Shown here piece by piece: positions 5,417 to 42,157 of a stretch of DNA of 64,000 nucleotides; position 1 is the first letter of the stretch; every line of letters starts with the position of its first letter. Source of the DNA: an uncultured Caulobacter sp. Its GTDB lineage: Bacteria; Pseudomonadota; Alphaproteobacteria; Caulobacterales; Caulobacteraceae. The notes beneath the pieces were generated by a model. It had not been told where the DNA came from. It saw nothing but the letters and a program-made list of their open reading frames with translations, and did not search any database. The position numbers were made by a program, and so were the translations under genes. The stretch spans positions 186,001 through 250,000 of the forward strand of contig CAJYMH010000006.1 of assembly GCA_913776195.1 (NCBI GenBank), given 5' to 3'.

Positions 5417-5487
5417 TCTTAAACCGCCCGCCGATGCAACCCGTCGGCGGGCGGCGCGATCTATGCTGACCCCGTCAGGAGCATTCC

Positions 5488-5910
5488 ATGCAGCAACAGG
5501 TCGCGGTCATAACCCTGGGCGTCGCCGATCTCGCCCGCTCTCGCCGGTTCTACGGCGAGGGGTTCGGCTGGTCGCCAGCCTTCGAGAACGAGGAGATCAT
5601 CTTCTACCAGATGAACGGCTTTGTACTTGGGACCTGGCTGAAAGCTCCGCTGGAGCTGGACATGCAGCGCCGCTGCAACTCCGCGTCCGCCCCGATCGCC
5701 CTGGCGCACAATGTCGTCTCGGAGGCTGAGGTCCAGCCCCTGCTCGACCAACTCGTCGCCCATGGCGGATTGCAGCTTCGCCTCGGCGACGCCCCGCCCC
5801 ATGGCGGCTTTCGAGGTTATGTCCAGGATCCGGACGGCCACGCCTGGGAGATCGCCTGGAACCCTGCCTGGCCGATCAGCCCTGAAGGCTATGTGAAGTT
5901 CGCGCTCTGA
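5488..5910 (+). CDS. VOC (glyoxalase/bleomycin resistance) family protein
   Basis: VAVITLGVADLARSRRFYGEGFGW and YVQDPDGHAWEIAWNP. Confidence 0.85.
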   Translation: MQQQVAVITLGVADLARSRRFYGEGFGWSPAFENEEIIFYQMNGFVLGTWLKAPLELDMQRRCNSASAPIALAHNVVSEAEVQPLLDQLVAHGGLQLRLGDAPPHGGFRGYVQDPDGHAWEIAWNPAWPISPEGYVKFAL

Positions 5911-5919
5911 GGCGGCGGC

Positions 5920-6642
5920 CTAGAAGGGGATCGGCGCTCCGTCCCAGGCGATCAGCCGGCCGCTGCTCTGGCTATCGGCCCGATCGATCACCTCGAGCAG
6001 ACGCGCGGCGCTGTGTGCGGGGGTGAACAGCTTCTCCGCCGCCACGCCCGCTTGGAACGGTCGGCTCAAGCCCGTATCCACTGTTCCGGGATGCAGGGTC
6101 AGCAGCACGGCTTCGGGCCGCAGGCGGGCGGTCTCGACCGCCATCGTCCGGATCAACTGGTTCAAAGCCGCCTTCGACGCACGATAGGCGTGCCATCCTC
6201 CAAGCCTGTTGTCCTCGATGCTGCCTACCCGCGCCGACAGGGCGGCGAACACGCTCTTTCCAGCCTTGGGCAGAAGCGGCAGGAAGTGCTTGGCCGCCAG
6301 GGCCGGACCGATCGCATTGATCTGGAACGCCTTGGTCAGCATCAGCGGATCGAGGGCGCGCAACGTCTTCTCCGGCGTCAAACCCTCGCCCTGCAGAAGG
6401 CCGCTGGCGATGAAGACCAGCCTTATAGGGGTCTCGCCGTCGACGAGGCGGGCGGCGGCCGCAGCGATGCTGGCCTCGTCCTCGAGATCGATTCGGTCCT
6501 CGACCCGGGCCGCAGAGCGCGACAGGCGCATGACGTCCAGTCCGCAGGCCTCGATCAACTCGGCCACGGCCGCGCCGATCCCGCCCGACGCCCCGACCAC
6601 CACCGCCCGCGCCGGGCGTGGCAGGCTGGCCAGCCCCGTCAT
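5920..6642 (-). CDS. SDR family oxidoreductase
   Basis: VVGASGGIGAAVAEL nucleotide-binding motif; YRASKAALNQLIRT active-site region. Confidence 0.9.
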   Translation of the reverse strand: MTGLASLPRPARAVVVGASGGIGAAVAELIEACGLDVMRLSRSAARVEDRIDLEDEASIAAAAARLVDGETPIRLVFIASGLLQGEGLTPEKTLRALDPLMLTKAFQINAIGPALAAKHFLPLLPKAGKSVFAALSARVGSIEDNRLGGWHAYRASKAALNQLIRTMAVETARLRPEAVLLTLHPGTVDTGLSRPFQAGVAAEKLFTPAHSAARLLEVIDRADSQSSGRLIAWDGAPIPF

Positions 6643-7205
6643 CAGATCGCTCGCAGGAAGAACACCTTGGCCGCGCCATACTTGCGCTCGTCCAAGACCT
6701 CGAAGCCTTCGACCGCGGGGGCGGCTTCGTCGTCGCCCTTTTCCAGCATGGCCACCGCTCCGGGCGCCAGCCAGCCGCCGGACAGCAGGCCGGCCAGAGC
6801 TTTCTCGCCCAGACCCTTGCGATAGGGCGGGTCCAGGAAGGCCAGTTCGAACGGCGCCCCGGCGCTGGCCGGGCGCTGGCCCAGGTCCGTGGCGTCGCGA
6901 CGATGCACGCGAGTGTTCCCGAAAAGGCCGAAGGCGTCGACGTTCTCACGGATCGCCCCACGCGCCGCCTCGTCGGTCTCCACGAACAGGCAGAAGGCCG
7001 CCCCGCGCGAAATCGCCTCGAAGCCCAGCGCCCCCGATCCGGCGAACACGTCGATCACCCGCAGGTCCCGCAGGCCCGGCGACCAGTCGGCATGCTCCAG
7101 GATATTGAACACCGCCTGCCGCGCACGGTCGGAAGTCGGCCGGGTGGCCGAGCCCTCCGGCGCGGCGATGGCCTTGCCGCGGAATGCGCCCGAAACGATC
7201 CGCAT
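6642..7205 (-). CDS. rsmD: 16S rRNA (guanine(966)-N(2))-methyltransferase RsmD
   Basis: MRIVSGAFRGKAIAAPEG...TRPTSDRARQAVFNIL; DVFAGSGALGFEA; FLDPPY. Confidence 0.93.
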   Translation of the reverse strand: MRIVSGAFRGKAIAAPEGSATRPTSDRARQAVFNILEHADWSPGLRDLRVIDVFAGSGALGFEAISRGAAFCLFVETDEAARGAIRENVDAFGLFGNTRVHRRDATDLGQRPASAGAPFELAFLDPPYRKGLGEKALAGLLSGGWLAPGAVAMLEKGDDEAAPAVEGFEVLDERKYGAAKVFFLRAI

Positions 7206-7816
7206 CAGGCGGTCTTGGTTAGGCGGCGCTGGATGGCGTTCGACCCAACCAGCAGCAATGCGGCGACCACGAAGCCCCATGCCGCGCCGCCGGCCAAGCT
7301 GGACAGCAGCAGAGCGCAGATCAGCCCCGGCAGCACGCCGCTGGAGAACAGCACATACAGGCGGGCCGGCAGGCGAATGGCCGGATCGACCAGCTTGCCG
7401 ATGAAGGCCGCATAGGCCCAGCCCACGGCGTGGGCCACGCCGATGGCGGCCACCAGTCCGATATAGAGCAGGCTCGACGAGGCGCTCGGCTTCTCCCACA
7501 GCAGCACCGTGCCTAGCGGCAGCAGGCCAAGCAGGCCCAGCATCAGCAGGTTCAGCACATCCAGAACGCCGTCGGCTCGCAGCAACCGCCCGAACGAGCG
7601 ACGGTGGGCGATCCAGTACACCCCGATGACCGCGAAGCTGACCGCGTAGGCGGTGAGCTTGTGGCCCATCAGACCGAAGAACGCAGCGACGCCCCCGCGC
7701 CACGCCTCCGGCGGATGGATCTCGATCGCCAGCAAGGTGATGGCGATGGCGAAGACCGCGTCCGAAAACAGGATCAGCCGGTGAAGATGTCTCTCGTCTC
7801 TCGCTTCGCTGCTCAT
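7205..7816 (-). CDS. TMEM175 (DUF1211) family membrane protein
   Basis: RLILFSDAVFAIAITLLAIEI signature, multiple TM segments. Confidence 0.85.
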   Translation of the reverse strand: MSSEARDERHLHRLILFSDAVFAIAITLLAIEIHPPEAWRGGVAAFFGLMGHKLTAYAVSFAVIGVYWIAHRRSFGRLLRADGVLDVLNLLMLGLLGLLPLGTVLLWEKPSASSSLLYIGLVAAIGVAHAVGWAYAAFIGKLVDPAIRLPARLYVLFSSGVLPGLICALLLSSLAGGAAWGFVVAALLLVGSNAIQRRLTKTA

Positions 7817-7830
7817 AACACCCCCTCAGG

Positions 7831-9096
7831 TCAGAGCTTCGGTCCCTTGGGACCCGGTTTCTTCGGGCCGCCGCTCTTGGGCGCGTGGCTCGGCTTCTTC
7901 TTCGGCTTCGCCCAGCCGGCCTTGTAGACCGGCTTGTCGGACGAGGCCTCGGCGCCGGCCGCCTTCGGGCGCGGCTTGCGGGTCTTGTCGGCGCGGCGCG
8001 GATCGCTGGTCTCCAGGCCCGGCGCCCGGAACGGCTTCTTGGGACCGCCGGGCTTCGGGCGACCCGGCCCACGCGGACGCTCGTCCTCGTCGCGCGGACG
8101 ACGCGGCGGAAAATCGCGGCCGCCAGGGCCCTTGCGGGGGCGCTCGTCCTCGCCACGACGCGGGCTGCGATCGTCACGACGCCCCTCGGCCTTGTCCTCG
8201 CGCGGCGTACGGCGATCAACCTTGCCGCCGCGACGCGGGGCGGGACCGTCACTTTCGACAGGCGCCGCGCCGCGGTACAGGGGCCGGTCGCCCAGGGGCA
8301 TGGAGCCGGCGGTGATGTGCTCGGCCAGCTGCTCGCGGATCACGCGGGGGCCGACCTCCTCCACCTCGCCCGGCGCCAGGGTCCCCAGCGAGAACGGGCC
8401 ATAGGACAGGCGGATCAGGCGGTTGACCTTCAGGTCAAGAGCTTCCAGCACCCGGCGTACTTCGCGGTTCTTGCCCTCGGCCAAGGTGACGGTGATCCAG
8501 ACGTTGCGGCCGAAGTTCTCCGGCCCCTTGGCCTTGTCCAGCTTCGCCTCGATGGCCCCGTACTTCACGCCCTCAATGGTGATGCCGTTCTTCAGGCGGT
8601 CCAGCTTCTCCTGGGTGGCGTGGCCGAAGGCGCGGGCGCGATAGACGCGCGACCAGCCGTTCGACGGCAGCTCCAGCGCCCGGGTCAGGCCGCCGTCATT
8701 GGTCAGCAGCAGCAGCCCTTCGGAATTCAGGTCGAGGCGCCCGACGGAGATCACCCGTCCGATCTCCTTGGGCAGGGCCTGGAACACCGTCGGCCGCCCC
8801 TTCGGGTCGTTATGTGTGGTCACCAGCCCGACCGGCTTGTGATAGCGGAACACGCGGGTGGGCTCGGCCGAGCCCACCACCACACCGTCCACGGTGAGGA
8901 TGTCGCCCTCGCCCACCTTGACCGCCGGATGGGTCAGGACCACGCCGTTCAGGGCCACGCGGCCGCTCTCGATCAGGCGCTCCACTTCCCGGCGCGAGGC
9001 CACGCCCGCGCGGGCCAAGGCCTTGGCGATGCGTTCGCCGCCTTGACCGTCGCCGGCCTCATCCGTCAGGTGGGGATCGTAGGTTTTCTTGTTCAT
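7831..9096 (-). CDS. RsuA/RluB-type pseudouridine synthase with long basic Pro/Arg/Lys-rich tail
   Basis: S4-like RIAKALARAGVASRREVERLIESGRVALNG; GRLDLNSEGLLLLTNDG; low-complexity C terminus. Confidence 0.9.
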   Translation of the reverse strand: MNKKTYDPHLTDEAGDGQGGERIAKALARAGVASRREVERLIESGRVALNGVVLTHPAVKVGEGDILTVDGVVVGSAEPTRVFRYHKPVGLVTTHNDPKGRPTVFQALPKEIGRVISVGRLDLNSEGLLLLTNDGGLTRALELPSNGWSRVYRARAFGHATQEKLDRLKNGITIEGVKYGAIEAKLDKAKGPENFGRNVWITVTLAEGKNREVRRVLEALDLKVNRLIRLSYGPFSLGTLAPGEVEEVGPRVIREQLAEHITAGSMPLGDRPLYRGAAPVESDGPAPRRGGKVDRRTPREDKAEGRRDDRSPRRGEDERPRKGPGGRDFPPRRPRDEDERPRGPGRPKPGGPKKPFRAPGLETSDPRRADKTRKPRPKAAGAEASSDKPVYKAGWAKPKKKPSHAPKSGGPKKPGPKGPKL

Positions 9097-9149
9097 GTCG
9101 CGTCCTGCTTCGGGCCGGGCGCATCTCACGATGGGCCGTAAAGTCGCAA

Positions 9150-9650
9150 ATGCGCAAAGAACCGCCTGACGATCAAGTCGCCCTGAACGCCGCCATGGGC
9201 CTTGCGCTGGAGCAGGCCCGGGCCGCCGCCGAGCGTGGGGAGACTCCGGTGGGGGCGGTGATCCTCGATCCGATCACGGGGGAGATCGTCGCCGTCGCGG
9301 GCAACGGTCCCATCGGCGCCCACGACCCCACGGCCCACGCCGAGATCGTCGCCATGCGCGCTGCGGCGGAGAAGTTCGGCAACTACCGCCTCACCGACCT
9401 GACCCTGGTGGTGACGCTGGAGCCCTGCGCCATGTGCGCGGGCGCCATCAGCCACGCCCGCATCGGCCGGGTGGTCTATGGAGCCGACGACCCCAAGGGC
9501 GGCGCCGTCGCGCACGGCCCGAAGTTCTTCGAACAGCCCACCTGCCACTGGCGTCCGGCGGTGACCGCCGGACTCATGGCCCAGGAAAGCGCCGACCTGC
9601 TGCGCGGCTTCTTCCGCGCCCGCCGCAAGCCCAAGGGAGACGCCGCATGA
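9150..9650 (+). CDS. tadA: Nucleoside deaminase, probable tRNA-specific adenosine deaminase TadA
   Basis: TAHAEIVAMRAA and EPCAMCAGAISHARI zinc motifs. Confidence 0.85.
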   Translation: MRKEPPDDQVALNAAMGLALEQARAAAERGETPVGAVILDPITGEIVAVAGNGPIGAHDPTAHAEIVAMRAAAEKFGNYRLTDLTLVVTLEPCAMCAGAISHARIGRVVYGADDPKGGAVAHGPKFFEQPTCHWRPAVTAGLMAQESADLLRGFFRARRKPKGDAA

Positions 9651-10078
9651 CCGCTCTCGCCCTCATCGCCCTGCTGGCCGTCGTCCAGCCCGCCAGCGAA
9701 CTGTCCTGGCTGGTGGGCAACTGGACGGAAAAGTCCGCCGAACGTGAGGTGGTGGAGACCTGGGTCGCGCCCGTGAACGGCGTCATGACCGGCAAAAGCA
9801 TCACCACCCGGCTTGGCCGTCCCGACTTTGTCGAAGACATGACGATCACCACCGAACCCGCCGGCCCGACCTTCACCGCCACCATCCCCGGCCAGGCGCC
9901 GACCGCCTTCGTCCGCCAGCCCGGCCCGCCGGGCGAAGCCGTGTTCGAGAACAAGGCCCACGACTTCCCGCAGCGGGTCATCTACCGCCGATGCGGGATC
10001 GACCTGTGCGCCGCCATCGAAGGAACGGTCGCAGGCGAGCTGAAGCGCACCGAGTGGCGCTACCGGCGGGCGCGCTAG
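9647..10078 (+). CDS. Secreted DUF6265-like protein
   Basis: Signal peptide; ELSWLVGNW...; ATGA overlap with tadA. Confidence 0.65.
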   Translation: MTALALIALLAVVQPASELSWLVGNWTEKSAEREVVETWVAPVNGVMTGKSITTRLGRPDFVEDMTITTEPAGPTFTATIPGQAPTAFVRQPGPPGEAVFENKAHDFPQRVIYRRCGIDLCAAIEGTVAGELKRTEWRYRRAR

Positions 10079-38430: not shown

Positions 38431-39072
38431 TCACCACCTCAGCACCCAACGGCCGGCCGCCGCGCCCAGAGCGCCGCTCAGGACCATGCCGAGCGTGTAC
38501 CAGGTCGCCACGAAGGTGGCCGTGCTCTCCGCACAGGACAGCCCATAGACCGTCGCCGCCACGGCGCCGCTGAACACGCCCGCCGCCAGGCCGGCCAGGG
38601 TCGGCTGCGTGGGCGCGAAGGCGCGCATAGCCAGCAGCATGGCCGCCAGCACCGGAATGCTGAGGGTGATGATCGCCGACAGGCAGTAGCTGAATGAGTT
38701 GCCATGGACCATGTGGGCGTGGTGGCTGCTGTCGGTCGAGACCAGCTCCATCCCTGCCGCCGCCACGAATCCTAGAACCAGGGTTCCGGCGATCCACGGC
38801 GCGGCGTCGGCCCTGCCCCCCGGCCGCGACAGACGACTGACGGCCCAGAAGGCCACCGCCGCCATCAGCACGGTGTACCCGGCCTTGATCCAGATGAAGG
38901 CGCCGCCGATGGCCTCGATCAGGTCCCCGCGCAGGCCCAGCAGGCAAATGACCAGCAGCAGGGCGACCGCGCCCCCCGCTGCGGCGCCGACGGCCAAGCG
39001 CAGTGTCATCGCCCCCCGCGGCGTGGGCCGCAGATCGGCGGCCATGGCGTCGAGAAGATCGTCAGTCCTCAT
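38431..39072 (-). CDS. nrsF: NrsF/DUF1109 family anti-sigma factor
   Basis: Six-TM protein overlapping an ECF sigma gene; Cys in SYCLSA and LSCAEST. Confidence 0.85.
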   Translation of the reverse strand: MRTDDLLDAMAADLRPTPRGAMTLRLAVGAAAGGAVALLLVICLLGLRGDLIEAIGGAFIWIKAGYTVLMAAVAFWAVSRLSRPGGRADAAPWIAGTLVLGFVAAAGMELVSTDSSHHAHMVHGNSFSYCLSAIITLSIPVLAAMLLAMRAFAPTQPTLAGLAAGVFSGAVAATVYGLSCAESTATFVATWYTLGMVLSGALGAAAGRWVLRW

Positions 39073-39604
39073 GGCCGCGGGCCCTTTCGGTAAGACGTTT
39101 CATGGCCCGGTGCAGGGCGACCTTGGCGGCCCCCTCGCTTAGGCTGGCGCGGGCCCCTGCTTCCGCCAGGCTCAGTCCTTCCAGCTTCACGTCGCGCACC
39201 AGGGCCTGATGCTGGGCGGAAAGTCCGGACATGACGCGGTCCAGGTCGCCCGCCGCGGCGGGATCGTGGCTGTCAGCGGCGAGAAAGTCGGCATAGTCCT
39301 CGATCGGCAGGTGGACGCGGATGCGTCGGCGACGCCAATGGTCGATCAGCTTGTAGCGGCCCAGGGCGTAGACCCAGGGCGTCAGGGGCTGGCTGCGGTC
39401 ATAGGTGGCCCGGCGAGTGTGAGCGGCCAGCAAGGTGTCCTGCACCAGGTCCTCCACGTCATCGCGGGCCTCACCCAGACGTCGGGCGAAATACAGCCGA
39501 AGCCGGTCCGACAACAGGGCGAGCAGCCGCCGGTAGGCCTGGGCGTCACCGTCCAGTCCCCGCAACATCAGTCCCTTCAAGGCAACTTCACTATCGTCCA
39601 CGCA
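39062..39604 (-). CDS. sigF: ECF sigma factor, SigF-like
   Basis: DDVEDLVQDTLLAAHTRRATYDRSQPLTPWVYALGRYKLIDHWRRRR region 2; region 4 LSLAEAGARASLSEGAAKVALHRAMKRL; start chosen at VDDSEVALKG, ORF extends to 39658. Confidence 0.9.
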   Translation of the reverse strand, partial: CVDDSEVALKGLMLRGLDGDAQAYRRLLALLSDRLRLYFARRLGEARDDVEDLVQDTLLAAHTRRATYDRSQPLTPWVYALGRYKLIDHWRRRRIRVHLPIEDYADFLAADSHDPAAAGDLDRVMSGLSAQHQALVRDVKLEGLSLAEAGARASLSEGAAKVALHRAMKRLTERARGHED

Positions 39605-39610
39605 GCCCCC

Positions 39611-39640
39611 TAGTCCGCGTGATGAGGGGTGAAGGTTACA
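39611..39640 (-). promoter_or_regulatory. Candidate SigF promoter of the sigF-nrsF unit
   Basis: Minus strand TGTAAC-N17-CGGACTA. Confidence 0.5.
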
Positions 39641-39700
39641 CCCGCTGCTGAAGATCATGATAGCGGCCGGGCGAACGTGGTTCGATTTTTATTGCAGCGC

Positions 39701-39729
39701 TGTAACGCTTCCCGGCGAACGGCGAACTA
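39701..39729 (+). promoter_or_regulatory. Candidate SigF promoter upstream of the XRE gene
   Basis: TGTAAC-N16-CGAACTA. Confidence 0.65.
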
Positions 39730-39788
39730 ATCCGGGCGGGGCGCGCGGCCGATGGGCGGCTAGCGGTCCCGTGCGTAAGGACCGCACG

Positions 39789-40064
39789 ATGAAGAGTAGC
39801 GCCGCCGTCGCGCGCATTTCCCAGAAACTCGATAGCGAGGGCCGCCTGGAGAAGCTGGGCAAGGTGATCGCCTCCGCCCGCCATCAGGCGGACGGCCCGA
39901 CCGCGATCACCCAGGAACGTCTCGCCAACGCCACGGGCATCGACCGGGCGCATATGAGCCGGCTGGAACGCGGCAAGAGCAATGTCACGATCCTGAACGT
40001 GCTGCGGGTCGCGGACGCCCTGGGCGTGCCGGCCTCCGAACTGCTGAAACGCGCCGGGCTTTAG
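39789..40064 (+). CDS. XRE-family HTH transcriptional regulator
   Basis: TQERLANATGIDRAHMSRLERGKSNVTILNVLRVADALGVPASELL. Confidence 0.9.
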   Translation: MKSSAAVARISQKLDSEGRLEKLGKVIASARHQADGPTAITQERLANATGIDRAHMSRLERGKSNVTILNVLRVADALGVPASELLKRAGL

Positions 40065-40168
40065 GTCCGCCGCGAACTGATTTCAAAAACGCGAGCGACG
40101 CCTCGAGCGGACGCTCGCGCTCGCCATTCTGCGGATATTGCGGCTGTCCAAATAATCGAACGCACCAA

Positions 40169-40197
40169 TGTAACGCTTGGAGGGAGCCGCCGAACTA
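40169..40197 (+). promoter_or_regulatory. Candidate SigF promoter of the bufABC-like operon
   Basis: TGTAAC-N16-CGAACTA, identical boxes and spacing to 39701-39729. Confidence 0.7.
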
Positions 40198-40259
40198 GCC
40201 CTTCAACCGGGGAATGGGTCGATGGTCGACCCGGAGCCCCGGACGGAAGGAACGGCTCC

Positions 40260-40538
40260 ATGAAGACCACCCTCGCCCTCGCCGCCATGGCGGCCCTCAG
40301 CGCCGGCGTCGCCTACGCCTCGCAAAAGCCTGTCCATGTCGAGGCCAAGCCCGATCAGGAGAAGTGCTATGGCATCGCCAAGGCGGGCGAGAACGACTGC
40401 GGCGCAGGGCCGGGCACGGCCTGCGGCGGCACCTCGACGATCGATTATCAGGGCAACGCCTGGAAGTACGTGGCCAAGGGGACCTGCACCTCCATCAAGA
40501 CGCCCAAGGGTATGGGCTCCCTGACGCCCAAGGCCTGA
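40260..40538 (+). CDS. bufA: DUF2282 bufferin-like RiPP precursor
   Basis: Signal peptide to AYA; four Cys (36, 47, 55, 76) in [22 protein letters not shown] and KGTCTS. Confidence 0.88.
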
Positions 40539-40551
40539 GGCGGAGCGTCCG

Positions 40552-41415
40552 ATGGCCACCCCCTCCGCCGGCCTGGGCCTGAAGCCCAAGCACTTCCGGG
40601 ACGCTGCGGCGTGCCCGGCGGCGGGGCTGTGGTTCGAGGTCCATCCCGAGAACTATCTGTGCGACGGCGGTCCCCGGCTGGCCGGACTGACCGCCGTCCG
40701 CGAGGTTCATCCCCTGTCGCTGCATGGGGTGGGCCTGTCCCTGGCCGGGGACGAGCCGCCGGATCGCGCGCACCTGAAGGCCCTGCGCCGGCTGGCCGAC
40801 CGGTTCGAACCGTTTCTGGTGTCGGAGCATCTGGCCTGGTCGCGGCGCGGCGGCGCCTATCATCCCGACCTGCTGCCCTTCCCCCGCACGATGAGCGCCC
40901 TGGTCCGCATCACCGACAATGTGGACGCCATGCAGACGGCGCTGGGCCGCCGGGTGCTGATCGAGAACCCGTCCCTCTATCTTGACCTGAGAGGTCACGA
41001 GATGAGCGAGATTGAGTTCCTGTCCGAACTGGTCCGCCGCACCGGCTGCGGTCTGCTGCTGGACGTGAACAACGTCTTCGTCAGCTGCGCCAACCTCGGC
41101 GGCGACGCGGAAGCCTATCTCGACGCCGTGCCCGCAGAAGCGGTGGGCGAGATCCATCTGGCCGGTCATGAGCGGGACGCGCGTCCGCGCTCGCCGCTGC
41201 TGATCGACACCCACGGCGCGCCGGTCGCGCCGGAGGTCTGGGCCCTCTATCGCCGCCTGGTCCACCGCATCGGGTCGCGGCCGACCCTGATCGAGCGCGA
41301 CGATGAGCTACCCCAATTCCCCAAACTGATGGCCGAGCGCGACATCGCCGACGCCGTCCTGCAATCGCTCGCCCCACACCCTGATCGGGAGATCGCCCAT
41401 GCCTGCGCTCAATGA
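40552..41415 (+). CDS. bufB: DUF692 multinuclear non-heme iron-dependent oxidase (MNIO)
   Basis: GLGLKPKHF, SLHGVGLSLAG, VSEHLAWSRRGG, IENPSLYLDL, LLLDVNNVFVSC, EIHLAGHE, IDTHGAPV. Confidence 0.93.
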   Translation: MATPSAGLGLKPKHFRDAAACPAAGLWFEVHPENYLCDGGPRLAGLTAVREVHPLSLHGVGLSLAGDEPPDRAHLKALRRLADRFEPFLVSEHLAWSRRGGAYHPDLLPFPRTMSALVRITDNVDAMQTALGRRVLIENPSLYLDLRGHEMSEIEFLSELVRRTGCGLLLDVNNVFVSCANLGGDAEAYLDAVPAEAVGEIHLAGHERDARPRSPLLIDTHGAPVAPEVWALYRRLVHRIGSRPTLIERDDELPQFPKLMAERDIADAVLQSLAPHPDREIAHACAQ

Positions 41416-42157
41416 CCTGGCCGCGTTTCAGGACGCCTTCGCCGGCGCCCTGATCGGCGAGCCTACCAAGCTGACCCCGTGGTTGGCGCCGGACGAGACG
41501 CCGCCCGGCCTGGCGGTCTATCGCGGCTCCACGACCTCGGGGATGATCGACGCCCTGGAGGCCAACTATCCCACGGTGCTGCAGATCGTAGGGCGCGACT
41601 GGTTCCGCGCGGCGGCGGGTCGTTTCGCCGCCGAGCATCCGCCGACCGAGCCCAGCCTGCTGGCCTACGGCGCGGCGTTCGGAGCTTGGCTGGAACACTT
41701 CGCCCCCAGCGCGGACCTGCCGTACCTGCCCGGGATCGCCCGGCTGGACCGACTGTGGACCGAGGCGCTGTTCGCCGCCGACGCGCCCGTGCTGAACGCC
41801 TGCGACTTCGCCGCGATTCCGCCGGCCCGGCTGCCGTTCCTGAGAGTATGCGTGCACCCGGCCGTCCGCTGGGCGGTCTTCGACCAGGGTCTGCCCGGTC
41901 TGTGGCTGGCCAGCCGGGCGGGCGATAGCGAGCTGGAGATTGAAGACACTCCCCAGGCCATGCTGGTCACCCGGCCGGCGACAGGGATCGAGACGCGGCT
42001 GATCGCCCCCGCCGCCACGACCTTCCTGAAGGCCTGCGTCGGGGGGAAACATCTGCACAGGGCCACGGCCGACACCCTGGCTCGGCATACGGAGGCGGAG
42101 GTGTCGCGGATCTTCGCCGGCCTGATCGGAGCCGGCGCCTTCACCGCCCTGCGCTAG
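41399..42157 (+). CDS. bufC: DUF2063 family protein, MNIO partner
   Basis: LAAFQDAFAGALIG...YRGSTTSGMIDALEANYPTVLQIVGRDWFRAAAGRFAAEHPPTEPSL; overlaps the DUF692 gene. Confidence 0.9.
   Translation: MPALNDLAAFQDAFAGALIGEPTKLTPWLAPDETPPGLAVYRGSTTSGMIDALEANYPTVLQIVGRDWFRAAAGRFAAEHPPTEPSLLAYGAAFGAWLEHFAPSADLPYLPGIARLDRLWTEALFAADAPVLNACDFAAIPPARLPFLRVCVHPAVRWAVFDQGLPGLWLASRAGDSELEIEDTPQAMLVTRPATGIETRLIAPAATTFLKACVGGKHLHRATADTLARHTEAEVSRIFAGLIGAGAFTALR

Follow-up and report, generated by a model that had tools for sequence, protein, structure and literature searches.

The locus described here, in a 64,000-nucleotide stretch of an uncultured Caulobacter genome (the window), is a SigF–NrsF–bufferin (bufABC) cluster, and its three SigF-type sites are very probably promoters read by SigF, the ECF16 sigma factor whose gene lies at 39062-39601 on the minus strand. 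The unusual and new part is an XRE regulator gene that lies between sigF and bufA and has a SigF-type promoter of its own. An earlier note on this DNA had reported the element TGTAAC-N16-CGAACTA before the XRE gene and before bufA, and a TGTAAC-N17-CGGACTA version before the sigma gene, and all three are exactly where it placed them. The sites of xre (39701-39729) and of bufABC (40169-40197) lie on the plus strand and have identical boxes, and that of sigF-nrsF (39611-39640) lies on the minus strand, with TGTAAC at 39640-39635 and CGGACTA at 39617-39611. The pattern TGTAAC-N15-18-CGRACTA has only these three matches in the window, against 0.00 expected from dinucleotide shuffles, and all three lie at gene 5' ends in a 590-bp stretch. 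A scan of the region for sigma-70 promoters found none.

The genes were identified by profile HMM searches. SigF1 matches Pfam Sigma70_r2/r4 and exceeds the cut-off of NCBIfam NF009191, and its gene adjoins nrsF1 (38431-39072, minus strand), which encodes a membrane anti-sigma factor (PF06532, E=2.3e-59); the arrangement that marks ECF16 is an ECF sigma factor containing regions 2 and 4 beside an anti-sigma of the NrsF (DUF1109) type. NrsF1 passes the Pfam cut-off and matches the NCBIfam equivalog NF042994 over its full length, with a score below the strict cut-off of that model, and its cysteines C130 and C180 correspond to C131 and C181, the functional cysteine pair of the C. crescentus protein (PMC3511200). 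The gene xre (39789-40064, plus strand) encodes a 91-aa Cro/C1-type HTH regulator with an HTH_3 domain (PF01381, E=5.7e-10; 39.5 bits against a gathering cut-off of 23). Further downstream on the same strand lie bufA (40260-40538), a bufferin precursor of the DUF2282 (Buf1) type that has four cysteines and apparently a signal peptide (PF10048, E=3.8e-23); bufB (40552-41415), the MNIO bufferin maturase (NF050167, 360 bits, cut-off 310); and bufC (41399-42157), the DUF2063 partner protein (PF09836, E=5.3e-19), so that a cysteine-containing DUF2282 precursor, an MNIO BufB, and a DUF2063 BufC make up a Buf1 cluster. The longest sigma ORF begins at an ATG at 39658, upstream of the sigF promoter, which overlaps that ORF. 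A GTG at 39601, 9 nt past the −10 box, is found at about the same position in most Caulobacter homologues and is therefore the likely start, with the consequence that the sigF mRNA is probably almost leaderless.

Comparison with a sister species (G049) supports this reading of the sites. The gene order and all three promoters are shared, with spacings of 17, 16, and 16 nt. All 39 of the 39 box bases are identical between the two species, against 30 of the 49 spacer bases (Fisher p=2e-6), at a coding dS of 0.44-0.77 and with the rest of the intergenic DNA full of indels. More widely, an NGTAAC-N16-17-CGNA site occurs just 5' of sigF in 60 of the 80 named sigF loci, or 60 of 65 outside Janthinobacterium; the 20 loci without the site include 15 from Janthinobacterium and one that is truncated. 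Nearly all the Caulobacter bufA genes examined have a TGTAAC box and, 16-17 nt further on, CGTA or CGAA, which makes the bufA promoter of the window a member of a class common in the genus.

These sites also agree with what has been published on SigF. The C. crescentus promoter, GTAACC-N16-CGAA, was defined by 5'RACE and lacZ tests (PMC3511200), and the ECF16 consensus is (T/C)GTAAC-N17-CGAA (PMC8315932). The window promoters have the form (T/C)GTAAC-N16/17-CGAA, with CGGA as sigF's own box, and because this box is CGGAC and not CGAAC, the sigF site may be weaker than the other two; CGGAT is also seen in other Caulobacter sigF promoters. Protein families, cross-species conservation, and the published consensus together support the assignment of SigF-type promoters to the sigma gene, xre, and bufA. 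The additional prediction of the earlier note, an autoregulated sigma factor controlling two downstream units, is supported, with two qualifications. The conserved sites fit a SigF that reads all three, but in C. crescentus the autoregulation of sigF under Cr/Cd is only weak and a second regulator acts on the gene (PMC3511200), and for xre, control by SigF is a prediction from the DNA.

For a SigF–NrsF–bufferin cluster of Caulobacter, the wiring proposed here is known biology in this genus once the XRE gene is set aside, and experiments in C. crescentus have already shown most of it. Copper strongly induces sigF and nrsF in that species, where the bufferin operons are also copper-induced (PMC8224329), and release of SigF from NrsF has been demonstrated there under chromium stress. 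By analogy, copper or a similar metal stress would free SigF from the membrane anti-sigma NrsF in the window species, and the freed factor would transcribe its own operon, bufABC and, in this lineage, the small XRE-type regulator in between. BufB and BufC would then mature BufA to a periplasmic copper chelator, as they do in C. vibrioides, and BufA would undergo thiooxazole modification and bind copper like C. vibrioides Buf1 (PMC12452194). The C. crescentus/vibrioides SigF-NrsF regulon (CC3252-CC3257, CC2905-CC2907, CC2748; PMC3511200, PMC8224329) resembles the window in that sigF-nrsF adjoins a DUF2282-MNIO-DUF2063 operon, and it shares with the window species the promoter class, the msrP promoter, and the NrsF cysteines. 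In the window, however, sigF and bufA are separated by an XRE gene that has a SigF-type promoter to itself, the bufA promoter has N16 and CGAACTA, and the bufABC operon lacks a DoxX gene; elsewhere the genome carries a second SigF/NrsF/bufferin module, also complete. The ECF16 systems of Brucella (BcrS/AbcS) and Bradyrhizobium (EcfF/OsrA) share the consensus (T/C)GTAAC-N17-CGAA and the NrsF/DUF1109 anti-sigma, but drive msrPQ-type repair of oxidant damage (HOCl/ROS), whereas the window locus has bufferins and an XRE regulator (PMC8315932). The Buf1 and Buf2 clusters of a bufferin survey (PMC12452194) have the same bufABC content, and those of the Buf1 kind can include genes for a sigma factor and NrsF; the passages of the survey consulted name no XRE regulator as a cluster gene. 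Given that its core is known biology, the locus mainly validates and extends the SigF regulon, on whose wiring the XRE branch and paralogue-specific −10 elements are new variations.

The second module, on contig C21, is a complete set in which sigF2-nrsF2 is divergent from DUF2282-DoxX, followed by a BufA2 precursor, an MNIO protein, and a DUF2063 protein. It occupies positions 5442-9572 of the segment C21:257000-270000, with a counterpart in the sister species, and its Buf1 (DUF2282-DoxX) and Buf2 (BufA2-MNIO-DUF2063) units each have a TGTAAC-N17-CGAAGAA element. The sigF2 promoter reads GGTAAC-N17-CGAAGAG, and the equivalent −10 elements of the sister species are CGAAGAA twice and CGAAGGG once. 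The presence of a Buf2 unit beside sigF/nrsF differs from the survey (PMC12452194), which places sigma/NrsF genes in Buf1 and not Buf2 clusters. Because module 1 has CGRACTA and module 2 CGAAGRR, the sequences suggest that the SigF paralogues read separate promoter sets. The competing view is one of cross-talk, with both paralogues reading all these promoters and the −10 difference being neutral, in which case SigF1 would not be the sole controller of the window locus. We give this somewhat less than an even chance. The two modules have identical or nearly identical −35 boxes, CG-A is common to the two −10 forms, and the bases that follow CGAA differ between species among sigF loci. However, each module retains its own form at all three promoters in both species (CGRACTA in 6/6 module-1 promoters and CGAAGRR in 6/6 module-2 promoters), and SigF1 and SigF2 are just 42% identical. 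If the separation of promoter sets is real, the two factors would be a natural ECF16 paralogue pair for asking how the −10 element separates paralogue regulons. A third SigF-like ORF, at 9325-9789 of a locus on contig C11 (L035), has region 2 only and no region 4, and is possibly a broken or repurposed ECF16 sigma. There is also a partial NrsF match on contig C14.

The XRE gene is a rare component. Close orthologues were found only in its own genome and in the sister species, among 392 genomes of the family; no XRE homologue was found in the 80 named sigF loci searched, nor did a homologue scan over the genome contigs find any. Among the loci inspected, several have a more distant relative (40-55% identity) close to an integrase or resolvase, and for this reason we consider that xre probably derives from a mobile-element regulator that was recruited and put under SigF. 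In five loci from three genera, these mobile-element relatives have a common block like GGGTCGTAAATACCGTGGTCG upstream of the XRE match, which is probably a regulatory site of the relatives themselves.

What the regulator does may be indicated by the leaders of the two plus-strand units. A CGATGGTCGG-like dyad, which is perhaps an XRE operator or an RNA hairpin, is common to the xre and bufA leaders in both species, 20-22 nt past the −10 box. In the window it takes the form CGATGGGCGG in the xre leader (39750-39759, plus strand, 20 nt past the box), a candidate operator or 5'-leader hairpin, and CGATGGTCGA (GGGTCGATGGTCGACCC) in the bufA leader (40220-40229, plus strand, 22 nt past the box). 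The similarity across both leaders and both species was reached by none of 2000 joint position permutations, a simple mononucleotide null, and common ancestry of the two promoters could also produce it; taken alone, the 10-mer is not a rare sequence in the window. By way of this dyad, just downstream of both promoters, XRE would exert feedback on two transcription units, its own and that of bufA, a step that we propose tentatively, as possible rather than probable. Joined to the paralogue argument, the fullest model would have SigF induce bufABC together with an XRE repressor captured from a mobile element, which would bind the dyad past both promoters and form an incoherent feed-forward brake on copper-chelator production, while the two SigF paralogues separate the bufferin modules by their −10 elements (CGRACTA vs CGAAGRR); as a whole this is rather unlikely. 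Were the XRE layer true, it would amount to the domestication of a mobile-element repressor into an ECF sigma circuit, limiting expression of a metal-chelating RiPP.

The same observations allow an account in which the promoters are real but xre is a mobile-element passenger under a duplicated SigF promoter, unrelated to the bufferins, and the dyad is a 5'-UTR hairpin that stabilizes SigF-driven mRNAs. We take this account seriously without expecting it to be correct. The proximity of XRE relatives to integrases and resolvases agrees with it, as does the strong fold of the bufA leader (z=−2.9). In Caulobacter species that lack the XRE gene, the bufA leader also begins with a hairpin, at the same place and of different sequence, for which reason the dyad may be an RNA element. 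Nevertheless, xre is under purifying selection (dN/dS 0.23) and encodes the best conserved protein of the locus relative to the sister species (86% identity), and its promoter has identical boxes in the two species despite changes in the flanks. Moreover, the two leaders share the dyad sequence and not merely a hairpin, and the predicted fold of the XRE leader shows no unusual stability (z=−0.8). As an observation in its own right, many Caulobacter species have a short hairpin, GACCGAGCGGC...GCCGCCTCGGC, close to where the bufA transcript is predicted to start. A reading of the bufA-leader hairpin as a conserved RNA element was set aside as weak, with changes on both sides in only 1 of 9 pairs; the little covariation that this represents counts on the side of the passenger account.

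The genome scan proposed in the earlier note, run here with the looser pattern TGTAAC-N15-18-CGRAC, gives six sites in 3.27 Mb, three of which are the promoters of the window, and the others are isolated singletons with CGGAC boxes. Although the number of isolated matches elsewhere is small and similar to that of a reversed-pattern control, chance or base composition is an extremely improbable source of the three window sites, which cluster at gene 5' ends, fit the published consensus and are kept in the sister species, a conservation that already contradicts chance. As a possible SigF target we also considered a histidine-kinase gene in L035, which has TGTAAC-N16-CGGACTA, and left it out because its −10 box in the sister species is CCCACTA. 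In both species, TGTAACC-N17-CGTAACTA lies immediately ahead of msrP, some 310 bp from the match to the msrP domain (on the reverse strand in the window species' genome). This promoter matches the expectation from CC2748 of C. crescentus, and on such sequence grounds the SigF regulon seems to have retained its branch for methionine sulfoxide repair.
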